From the NCBI RefSeq assembly GCF_000011345.1, contig NC_004113.1, positions 186,001-250,000 of the forward strand: 64,000 nucleotides of DNA. Direction: 5' to 3'. Origin of the DNA: Thermosynechococcus vestitus BP-1 (GTDB taxonomy: Bacteria; Cyanobacteriota; Cyanobacteriia; Thermosynechococcales; Thermosynechococcaceae). The notes beneath the pieces are model-generated. The model was not told the origin of the DNA, searched no databases, and worked only from the letters and a program-made list of their open reading frames with translations. How positions within the stretch are numbered: the stretch's first letter is position 1; every line of letters begins with the position of its first letter. This document shows positions 53,382-57,044 of this stretch, piece by piece. Position numbers and translations under genes: made by a program.

Positions 53382-53966
53382 ATGGTCGCAAAAGTCACCC
53401 GCTCCCGTCCCACATTGATTGTGCTGGCCGTTATTGGCCTTGCCTCGGCTACTACAGCGGCATGGCTAACCTTGAATCCTCCTCGGCCGGGAGATCCAGT
53501 TCCCAATTCGGCGCAAGTTGCTCAGCAGCAGGAAACTCAAATCTTTTGGGTTAAAAATGAAGGGGACACCCTCATCCTAGTGCCCTCAACAGTACGGATA
53601 AATACCCCGGCAACACGGCCAGAACTCTTTATTCAATCGCGGCTGGAGCGGCTTTTGGCGGGGCCGGCTAATCAGGATGTCACCACCGGCATTCCGGAAA
53701 ATACCCGTGTCAATTGGGTAGAAGTCAAAGCCGATGGCATCCATGTCGATCTCTCCCCAGAGTTTACCAAGGGCGGGGGGAGTGCCTCAATGCAAGCGCG
53801 CTTAGGGCAGGTCTTGTACACAGCAACGGCGAGTGATCCCAAGGCACCGGTTTGGATTTCCATTGGTGGTGAACCGCTCCGTGTCCTAGGGGGTGAGGGG
53901 CTAGAGGTGACGCAACCCATGACGCGTCAAAACTTTCAAAGGGCCTTTGCCCTCCGCATCCAGTAG
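53382..53966 (+). CDS. GerMN domain protein, membrane anchored
   Basis: About 194 residues. An N-terminal single membrane anchor (TLIVLAVIGLASATTAAWLT) is followed by one GerMN domain from about residue 50 (QIFWVKNEGDTLILVPSTVR, RLERLLAGPANQ, VHVDLSPEF-like GIHVDLSPEFTKGG). GerMN domains are extracytoplasmic and often found in wall-associated proteins. The ATG at 53382 is chosen because AAGGAGA lies 7-13 nt upstream; longer starts at 53334 or 53346 are possible. It overlaps the permease gene convergently by 31 bp. Confidence 0.83.
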   Translation: MVAKVTRSRPTLIVLAVIGLASATTAAWLTLNPPRPGDPVPNSAQVAQQQETQIFWVKNEGDTLILVPSTVRINTPATRPELFIQSRLERLLAGPANQDVTTGIPENTRVNWVEVKADGIHVDLSPEFTKGGGSASMQARLGQVLYTATASDPKAPVWISIGGEPLRVLGGEGLEVTQPMTRQNFQRAFALRIQ

Positions 53967-55129
53967 TGCCAAGCCAGCCCAAGAAGAAGGAGACCGCACC
54001 CCGATACCCAGACTTGGACTTCGACCCAAAAGGCCAGCCCGAGACAGCCAATTAAACCTGCAACCGCAAGCCAGCGGGGAAATTGTGGCTCCTGCAGTTG
54101 CAGTGCGGCAAGATTGGTAATGGCGTAGTAAATCAGCACGCTAAAGGCACTAAAGGACCATGTCGTTTGCACATTGCCAAGGAGGATCAATAGGGCAATC
54201 CCCCCACTCACAGCGAGAATGGCAGCGACAGGTTGTTTTCCTTGGGGTGGAATCTGAGCTAAAGTTGGTGGTAAATCTCGTCGTCGCGCCATTGCCAACA
54301 CTACACGGGAGAGGCCAAGCAATAGATTGAGCAAAATCCCCACCAGGGCAGCGATCGCCCCCAAAGCCATAAGAGGGGGTAGCCAAGGTACGCCAAAGCG
54401 ACTCGCCACCACTGCTAGGGAGGCAGCAGTAGTGAGGTTTCCTGAATGATGACTGCCGAGGACAACCCAAGCGACACTCAGGTACAGCAGCAGCGCAATG
54501 ACAATGGTGAGCACAATAGCCCGGGGAATGGTTTGCCGGGGGGTTTTAACCTCCTCCGCCAGCACAGCGATACGGGCATAGCCTGCATAGGCAACAAAGA
54601 GGAGTGCCGTTGCCTGAAGAAGATGTTTGAGTGATAGGGGTTGCGATGTTGCCAGCCAAGGTGATCCTCCCCGCTGTTGGAGATGGCCAATCCCCACAAA
54701 GAGCAATAGACTGGTGAACGTGACAAGGAGAATCCCCAGATTCACTTGAGTCGATCGGCGGATCCCCAAAAGCACCACGCCGGTCAAGACCGCCAGTAGC
54801 CCCAGAGCAGCCATAACTTGCCAGCGTCCGCTGCTGTCTTCTAGGCCCAACCATTGGTAGAGATAGGCCACAGACCCAAGGGCGGCAGTGGCTGCGGAAG
54901 CCGATTTGGCCACTAAAAACATCCACCCTGCTGTAAAGCCGAAAGGGGGAGAAAGGTAGTGATACCCATACTCGTAAGTACCCCCACTCACAGGATGGGA
55001 GGCAGCTAATTGGGCACTACTGAGGCCGTTACACAAAGCGATCGCTGCTGCTAGGATTAGGGCTATCAACACCCAAGCGCCGGCGAGGTCGGTAGCGATG
55101 CCTAAACTGACCAATGAAATCGGATACAA
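53936..55129 (-). CDS. APC-family amino acid permease, 5' truncated
   Basis: 397 residues, about 11 hydrophobic helices. The sequence begins in the middle of helix 1 (ISLVSLGIATDLAGAWVLIA), then has the conserved helix 2-3 region AQLAASHPVSGGTYEYGYHYLS and TPRQTIPRAIVLTI. Typical APC transporters have about 35 more N-terminal residues, including the GAxxGxGI substrate-binding turn. The missing part lies where the IS605 element begins (about 55128), and the apparent start is a TTG at the junction. Likely non-functional or altered; labelled CDS because the rest of the frame is intact. Confidence 0.8.
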   Translation of the reverse strand: MYPISLVSLGIATDLAGAWVLIALILAAAIALCNGLSSAQLAASHPVSGGTYEYGYHYLSPPFGFTAGWMFLVAKSASAATAALGSVAYLYQWLGLEDSSGRWQVMAALGLLAVLTGVVLLGIRRSTQVNLGILLVTFTSLLLFVGIGHLQQRGGSPWLATSQPLSLKHLLQATALLFVAYAGYARIAVLAEEVKTPRQTIPRAIVLTIVIALLLYLSVAWVVLGSHHSGNLTTAASLAVVASRFGVPWLPPLMALGAIAALVGILLNLLLGLSRVVLAMARRRDLPPTLAQIPPQGKQPVAAILAVSGGIALLILLGNVQTTWSFSAFSVLIYYAITNLAALQLQEPQFPRWLAVAGLIGCLGLAFWVEVQVWVSGCGLLLLGLAWHYWMRRAKAL

Positions 55130-55140
55130 GCCCCGTCCTT

Positions 55141-55533
55141 TTAGGACTTTTGATTTCTCATGTATTCCTTAAGCACCTCTAACAGTGCTCCTCCAACAGA
55201 TGCCGCAAAATAACTAGGGCTCCAAAGTGATTCTTCATGGGGTTTTGGTAGTGCAGCTTTTCCATATCGACGACTAGATACACCTTTAAGCGCATTTACA
55301 ATCTGCGAAACAGAAAGTTTAGGAGGGTACTCAATTAGCGCATGGACATGGTCTTCTTCGCCGTTAAATTCAAGAATCTGGAAATCCATCTTCTTAGCGA
55401 CTTCTCGAAACGATTTCTCGATCAGCTCTAATCCCTCAGCGCTAAGGACTGGCCGGCGATACTTAGTCACGCATACCAAATGAATCTTTAGGTCCGTAAC
55501 ACTGTGTCTCCCTTTACGAAGATGACTTGACAT
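55141..55533 (-). CDS. tnpA: IS200/IS605 family transposase TnpA (Y1 HUH)
   Basis: A 130-residue single-strand transposase. It begins MSSHLRKGRHSVTDLKIHLV and has VCVTKYRRPVL, the HUH metal site EEDHVHALIEYPP (His-Val-His) and the catalytic Tyr in VLKEYMRNQKS close to the end. Frame is intact. It should cut and join element ends at 5'-TTAC-like sites and could mobilise the two TnpB-only elements in this window if their ends are compatible, though these are a different subfamily. Confidence 0.92.
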   Translation of the reverse strand: MSSHLRKGRHSVTDLKIHLVCVTKYRRPVLSAEGLELIEKSFREVAKKMDFQILEFNGEEDHVHALIEYPPKLSVSQIVNALKGVSSRRYGKAALPKPHEESLWSPSYFAASVGGALLEVLKEYMRNQKS

Positions 55534-55584
55534 TGCCTGTAGACCAACCTATAATCTAGCTACAGACCAATTATAGCACAACCA

Positions 55585-56763
55585 ATGAAAGCTAGATATA
55601 GATATCGTTTCTATCCCACAGACCAACAACGACAACGCCTAGCTCAGTTGTTTGGCTGTGTCCGTGTGGTATGGAACGACGCACTGGCAATTTGTAAACA
55701 ATCTGATTCATTGCCAAAAACTAGTGAATTGCAAAAGCTAGTAATTACCCAAGGGAAGAAAACACCAGAGCGGCAATGGTTGTCTGATGTTTCTAATGTC
55801 CCGTTACAGCAGTCCGTTGCCGATTTAGGAGTTGCCTATAAAAACTTCTTCGATTCAATTAAAGGTCGGCGAAAAGGCAAGAAGATCAACCCTCCTAGAT
55901 TTAAAAAGAAGACAGAAAGACAATCCGCCAGATTTACTACCTATGGTTTTTCAATTAAAGGCGAAGAAGTTTATCTAGCGAAGATTGGTAATGTCAGACC
56001 AATTTGGTCAAGAAAGCTTCCTTCTAAACCAAGCTCAGTTACGGTGATTAAAGATGCTGCAAATCGATATTTTCTCAGTTTTGTCGTCGAGATCGACCCA
56101 GTTCATCAACCTGCAAGTAATCCTTCTATCGGCATTGATTTGGGAATTAAAGCGTTTGCTACTTTAAGTACGGGCGAAAAGATTGATGGCCCTGATTATT
56201 CCAAGTTAGACAAAAAGATCAGGCGAAAACAACGCAAACTGGCCCGTCAAGTTAAAGGAAGCCAACGGCGGGAGAAAACAAGACTGCAAATCGCTAAGCT
56301 TCATAGTCGGATTTCAGACATTCGCAGGGATTTCTTGCATAAAGTGTCTACCCGCGTGGTTATCGAGAACCAAGTGATCGCGCTGGAAGACTTAAATGTC
56401 TCTGGAATGGTGAAGAACCGCAAACTCGCTAGAGCAATTAGCTTGCAAGGTTGGCGAGAATTCAGGGTTTTAGTTGAGGCTAAGTGCAACAAACTAAACC
56501 GTGATTTTATTGTCATTGACCGATGGGAGCCAACCAGTCAGACTTGCTCAAAATGCGGTTTTAAATGGGGCAAAGTCGATCTATCCGTTCGCTCTGTCGT
56601 ATGTCTAAATTGTGGTGCAGAGCACGATAGAGACGAAAATGCCGCAAGAAACATAGAAAAAGTCGGGATAGGGCATTGCCACGACTATAAATGGACGCAG
56701 AGGGGGAGTAAGACTACTTCGGTAGCATCACCCAGTGAAGCGTCAAGAATCATCGCACTTTAG
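55585..56763 (+). CDS. tnpB: RNA-guided endonuclease TnpB (IS605 type)
   Basis: 392 residues. N-terminal MKARYRYRFYPTDQQRQRLA, then the RuvC triad in IGIDLGIKAFATLS (Asp), VIALEDLNVSGM (Glu) and EHDRDENAARNIEK (Asp), with the zinc finger CSKCGF/CLNCGA. All catalytic residues and cysteines are present. It is clearly a different subfamily from the two TnpB copies at the left of the window. It is divergent from tnpA with a 51-bp gap that likely holds both promoters. Confidence 0.93.
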   Translation: MKARYRYRFYPTDQQRQRLAQLFGCVRVVWNDALAICKQSDSLPKTSELQKLVITQGKKTPERQWLSDVSNVPLQQSVADLGVAYKNFFDSIKGRRKGKKINPPRFKKKTERQSARFTTYGFSIKGEEVYLAKIGNVRPIWSRKLPSKPSSVTVIKDAANRYFLSFVVEIDPVHQPASNPSIGIDLGIKAFATLSTGEKIDGPDYSKLDKKIRRKQRKLARQVKGSQRREKTRLQIAKLHSRISDIRRDFLHKVSTRVVIENQVIALEDLNVSGMVKNRKLARAISLQGWREFRVLVEAKCNKLNRDFIVIDRWEPTSQTCSKCGFKWGKVDLSVRSVVCLNCGAEHDRDENAARNIEKVGIGHCHDYKWTQRGSKTTSVASPSEASRIIAL

Positions 56764-56780
56764 GGCGGTGAGTATGTCAA
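56600..56780 (+). ncRNA. Predicted omega-RNA region of the IS605 TnpB
   Basis: In TnpB systems the guide RNA is made from the 3' end of tnpB through the right end of the element. Here that region is roughly 56600-56780, overlapping the end of tnpB, and its guide would be the first bases after 56780 (ATCTACTACCGCAGTAATGC). The boundaries are inferred from other TnpB systems; no separate promoter was recognised. Confidence 0.4.
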
Positions 56781-57044
56781 ATCTACTACCGCAGTAATGC
56801 CGTCCTCTTAGAAATTGAACGGGAGTATCCCGACGGTAATGTTCTGCTTGTTTCCCACAAGGCTACCATTCGGATTATGCTCTGTGGTCTTCTTGGGATT
56901 GATGTGGGACGGTTTCGCGATCTCATTGCTGCCCCAGTGGCCAGTGTCAGTATTGTGGAATATACCTCCCGTGGACCACTGCTCCTTGCCCTGGCGGAGC
57001 GATCGCACCTAAGTCCAGAACTGCGGCACCTGCCGGGCACCTAA
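56781..57044 (+). pseudogene. Histidine phosphatase (phosphoglycerate mutase-like), C-terminal fragment
   Basis: Open frame of 87 codons directly after the IS end. It contains EIEREYPDGNVLLVSHKATI and LCGLLGIDVGRFRDLIAAPV, the second conserved His region of histidine phosphatases (usually VSHG; here SHK, as in related cyanobacterial proteins), and ends LRHLPGT. The N-terminal RHGE motif and about the first 120 residues are missing, apparently removed together with the IS605 event. It ends 1 bp before the convergent frr stop. Confidence 0.8.

Follow-up and report, generated by a model that had tools for sequence, protein, structure and literature searches.

The IS605-type element that lies between an amino-acid permease gene and a histidine phosphatase gene in the analyzed window (64,000 nucleotides, G000:C1:186001-250000) very probably represents, as judged from the sequence, one of the two reciprocal junctions left when a chromosome segment was inverted between two IS605-type copies. 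Two copies of the element, referred to here as copy A and copy B, are present in inverted orientation with exchanged flanks on the single contig of 2,593,857 bp that makes up genome G000; the ancestral sites are free of the element and no DNA was lost. These reciprocal junctions are most simply explained by a single inversion, while one flipped collinear block was not observed. Ten other genomes of the genus (G001-G010) served for comparison.

Copy A occupies positions 55112-56780 of the window (plus strand, 1669 bp). Its ends were defined by an alignment of the 13 element copies present in G000, i.e. copy A and 12 further copies, one of which is internally shortened and was reported as two loci (L013 and L014). 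Compared with the boundaries of about 55127 and 56781 proposed in an earlier note on this DNA, the left one had been placed some 16 bases too far inside the element and was corrected accordingly. The element carries an intact tnpA gene for a Y1 transposase of 130 amino acids (55141-55533, minus strand; PF01797, 125 bits) and an intact tnpB gene encoding 392 amino acids (55585-56763, plus strand; PF01385, PF07282 and PF12323), which are divergently arranged on opposite strands. The left end is directly adjoined by the TGAC of the target motif (55108-55111, plus strand; CTGAC if position 55107 is included), which is part of the permease gene. In the alignment, 12 of the 13 copies carry NTGAC just before the left end, the remaining one (L007) showing ATCAC, and the right end reads ...GTATGTCAA. 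The right ends are without duplicated bases, and the restored joints described below contain no target duplication. Three features of the IS605 group within the IS200/IS605 family, namely a Y1 (HUH) TnpA, a divergent TnpB gene and insertion 3' of a fixed short motif without duplication, were seen. For a fourth one, subterminal imperfect hairpins, structures are predicted at both element ends, with z-scores of only -0.84 and -1.55. No close copy of the element was detected in the ten relatives, the longest match elsewhere being 64% identical.

To the left of copy A, the permease gene (53936-55111, minus strand; PF00324/PF13520) lacks its first approximately 25 codons. The truncated open reading frame opens with codons derived from the element (55112-55129, minus strand; TTG start, MYPIS...), and its alignment with orthologues does not start before residue 6, since everything upstream of 55111 in this frame is IS-derived. 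With the left IS boundary at 55111/55112, the residues MYPIS are therefore encoded by the element. This removes the basis of a caveat in the earlier note, according to which an ATG found in front of the YPIS sequence after precise removal of the element could mean that the junction predates the insertion. A junction older than the insertion was also rejected on other grounds, as the gene halves stop exactly at the ends of the element and the genes of the relatives are separate and uninterrupted. A near-full-length permease was found in five of the ten relatives (G001, G004, G005, G007 and G009). In G003 and G006 the permease is present in broken pieces with internal stops and without the IS, a copy of the element like copy A not having been found in either genome, and no permease match was obtained in G002, G008 and G010. 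Taken together, the broken pieces in two relatives and the lack of a match in three others suggest that the permease is dispensable in the genus, where it also appears to have been lost independently of the element. The decayed loci are L027-L030 (G003:764229-764926) and L028 (G006), and some internal sequence is also missing in G003.

To the right of copy A, the window contains the C-terminal part of the histidine phosphatase (56781-57044, plus strand). This fragment of 86 amino acids, as compared to 215 in the G004 orthologue, spans positions 125-191 of the 194 positions of the His_Phos_1 profile (PF00300), of which an orthologue covers 1-191. The closest named matches come from Thermosynechococcus MAGs (91-99% identity). 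An ancestrally truncated phosphatase was ruled out, since the protein is full length in all ten relatives (open frames of 217-240 amino acids). Relatives with the same shortened genes and no element had been regarded beforehand as evidence against a deletion through the element. A shortened phosphatase occurs in none of the ten, and for the permease the picture is limited to the decay in G003 and G006 and to the three genomes without a match.

The permease and phosphatase loci of G004 were used as probes against G000. The 5' end of the permease gene together with its upstream neighbour was found at G000:385052-386508, thus extending from position 386508 downwards on one side of copy B (G000:386509-388169, minus strand, and hence inverted with respect to copy A on the plus strand). 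The N-terminal part of the phosphatase and its upstream neighbour are located on the other side, at G000:388170-389666. Over 1.67 kb, comparison of copy A with copy B shows 47 differing positions and one 8-bp indel, the two being about 97% alike; the 8-bp deletion relative to copy A leaves the tnpB gene of copy B frameshifted. Copy B and L007 (G000:467710-469374) are each about 1661 bp in length, with tnpB in short frames and tnpA keeping its frame of 130 amino acids.

Joining the left-end flank of copy A to the right-end flank of copy B yields an intact permease frame (...IGTGLFVSLGIATDL...), and the left-end flank of copy B joined to the right-end flank of copy A yields an intact phosphatase frame (...GGERGIDIYYRSN...). 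This exchange neither adds nor removes nor duplicates a base, and it makes both proteins continuous with their orthologues. The continuity of the joints was scored with 300 bases on either side. For the permease, the restored joint proved continuous in all six relatives with a matching locus (G001, G003, G004, G005, G007 and G009; the short permease piece of G006 did not match and stands outside this count), and the restored phosphatase joint is continuous in 10 of 10. As a counterpart, the joints as found in G000 are continuous in no relative, and no match runs more than 7 bases past them. The earlier note was correct in that all parts of the arrangement, i.e. an IS605-type element between a permease and a histidine phosphatase gene both devoid of their 5' ends, are present, that a simple insertion is unable to explain both truncations, and that recombination between two copies of the element does explain them. 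The deletion between copies which it had proposed did not hold: the two 5' parts thought to be lost flank the inverted copy B, and both genes are recovered to the base when the flanks are exchanged, which argues for an inversion and against a deletion.

The positions of the ancestral sites can be followed in G004. Positions 241114 and 386508 of G000 correspond to 2237984 and 2237982 in this genome, so that the flanks lie within three bases of each other with the strand reversed, and positions 242781 and 388170 correspond to 1276830 and 1276831, likewise with strand reversal. The strand changes are those expected of an inversion. In the single-contig genomes containing both genes, the permease and the phosphatase are about 961 kb (G004), 203 kb (G001) and 349 kb (G009) apart and are neighbours in none of them; therefore no shared 5' region can have been lost in one deletion. 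An arrangement with the ancestral joints about 144 kb apart was seen in none of the relatives compared, as the genus is heavily rearranged. In G009, for example, the sequence shared with G000 in this region is confined to scattered blocks, and the genome is too scrambled for large-scale synteny.

Judging from the restored sites, one IS605-type element would have entered the permease gene around codon 25, on the 3' side of CTGAC, and another the phosphatase gene about halfway along, on the 3' side of TTGAC, the two copies being in inverted orientation before recombination. One crossover between them would then flip 143,728 bp (G000:242781-386508, about 143.7 kb). RecA-type homologous recombination would be the most likely route, since 1.67 kb at about 97% identity is ample. 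The right flanks would thereby be swapped, giving the order permease 3' part-IS-phosphatase 3' part at copy A and phosphatase 5' part-IS-permease 5' part at copy B. Swapping halves between A and B, as a way to place the crossover inside the element, improves their fit to the sibling copies by only 3 mismatches; this value ranks 39th among 78 copy pairs, and no crossover point stood out, the copies being mosaic.

A swap of the flanks of A and B in the published assembly, caused by near-identical repeats and leaving the real chromosome unflipped, would yield exactly this pattern between inverted repeats, and the genome contains 13 copies. Moreover, if an exchange found at three other copies (L002, L008 and L009, see below) is reversed alone, the chromosome closes into three circles, which means that the map contains either an error or one or more additional rearrangements. 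However, such a misassembly at the repeats is unlikely, because the 47 differences and the 8-bp indel between A and B could be resolved by ordinary reads. In addition, in the portion of the literature available to us many transposase-associated breakpoints have been published for the genus from complete genomes (PMC9403480). It would also be conceivable that the junctions were formed otherwise, e.g. by TnpA-mediated joining or by several rearrangements via other repeats that mimic a single inversion. The mosaic structure of the copies does show frequent exchange among them, and further breakpoints such as copy L002 at 397 kb are located nearby; still, a single exchange suffices to produce the two perfectly reciprocal joints without any base change, which makes such an origin very improbable. 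A deletion between two IS605 copies in direct orientation that took both 5' parts would account for two genes truncated at one IS, but is virtually excluded with the missing parts both residing beside an inverted copy and no base missing.

Bacterial chromosomes are known to undergo inversion through homologous recombination between IS copies in inverted orientation. The inversion proposed here shares with the textbook case the two inverted copies, the reciprocal junctions, the genes split on both sides and the absence of net loss, and nothing essential differs, the repeat in G000 being an IS605-group element with copies about 97% alike. The mechanism is thus well known, and the case presented here is a clean instance in a highly rearranged genus rather than a new mechanism, leaving the general view of IS action unchanged. 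What had been suspected to be gene loss is now explained by an inversion that is defined to the base at both reciprocal joints, the two "short" genes each prove to be one half of a gene whose other half lies elsewhere on the chromosome, and some of the reported loss of synteny in the genus becomes traceable to individual IS605 copies. In the accessible parts of the respective reports, large translocations and inversions with nearly all breakpoints at transposase genes are described between Thermosynechococcus TA-1 and CL-1 (PMC9403480), and mobile elements are described to have proliferated in BP-1 (PMC7005997, on BP-1 and T. vulcanus). These rearrangements concern the same genus, whereas individual IS605 junctions are not resolved in the parts of the two papers at hand. 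For Planktothrix, where IS200/IS605 ranks first in abundance among the IS families, the text at hand reports an inversion of about 270-300 kb, and there homologous gene loci and not a resolved IS605 pair are named as the enabling site (PMC9366434). A description of the inversion in G000 was found neither in the available portions of PMC2246112, PMC9403480, PMC7005997, PMC9366434 and PMC2882425 nor in a wider literature search, from which subscription papers were mostly absent.

The sequences flanking the remaining 11 copies were compared with six relatives, with 40 of 109-129 candidate stretches scored per genome. Among these 40 stretches, the flanks of L003, L005, L007, L010, L011 and L013/14 are contiguous in at least one relative, and those of L004 are separated by about 50 to 135 bases according to their listed positions. 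Within the same 40 of 109-129 stretches per genome, a cyclic exchange of flanks became apparent for L002 (G000:397187-398867), L008 (G000:2411784-2413462) and L009 (G000:2113577-2115255), as the left-end flank of L002 neighbours the right-end flank of L008 in relatives, that of L008 neighbours the right-end flank of L009, and that of L009 neighbours the right-end flank of L002. In G003 two of the three joints are continuous and the third contains 50 extra bases between two TGAC motifs. Given the three circles obtained on undoing this exchange alone, other rearrangements probably took part as well.

The 50 bases lie between the flanks at the ancestral L002/L008 site (L114) in G003 and are missing at the IS in G000. 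At L004 (G000:2320395-2322077), 82 bases between two TGAC motifs separate the flanks in G003 and are missing in G000; a search of G000 with this 82-bp stretch, run without a positive control, gave no match. Bases missing between TGAC motifs hint at a double insertion or at a small target-linked deletion.

At L012 (G000:138887-140514), the left flank belongs to one ancestral locus and the right flank maps elsewhere, past about 160 unmatched bases. The gene in the left flank continues in relatives and does not do so in G000; about 417 bp of the G003 locus are unmatched in G000, and the remainder is found at G000:711714-714509.

Overall, flank pairs that are not ancestral occur at 6 of the 13 copies, namely A, B, L002, L008, L009 and L012, the last four belonging to the 11 other copies. 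With flanks that are not neighbours in relatives at six copies, and with a short TGAC-TGAC stretch missing from two ancestral sites, a possible trace of paired insertions or of small TnpA-linked deletions at adjacent targets, the chances that the IS605-type copies have been a main force in reshuffling the chromosome of this strain are about even.

Three further sequences of about 195 bp (L015-L020; G000:1477375-1477568, G000:720543-720741 and G000:2430698-2430890) match the left end of the element over 40 bases (95%) and its right end over about 120 bases (75-77%). They are too short to contain the element genes and, going by these end matches, are probably non-autonomous IS605 derivatives.
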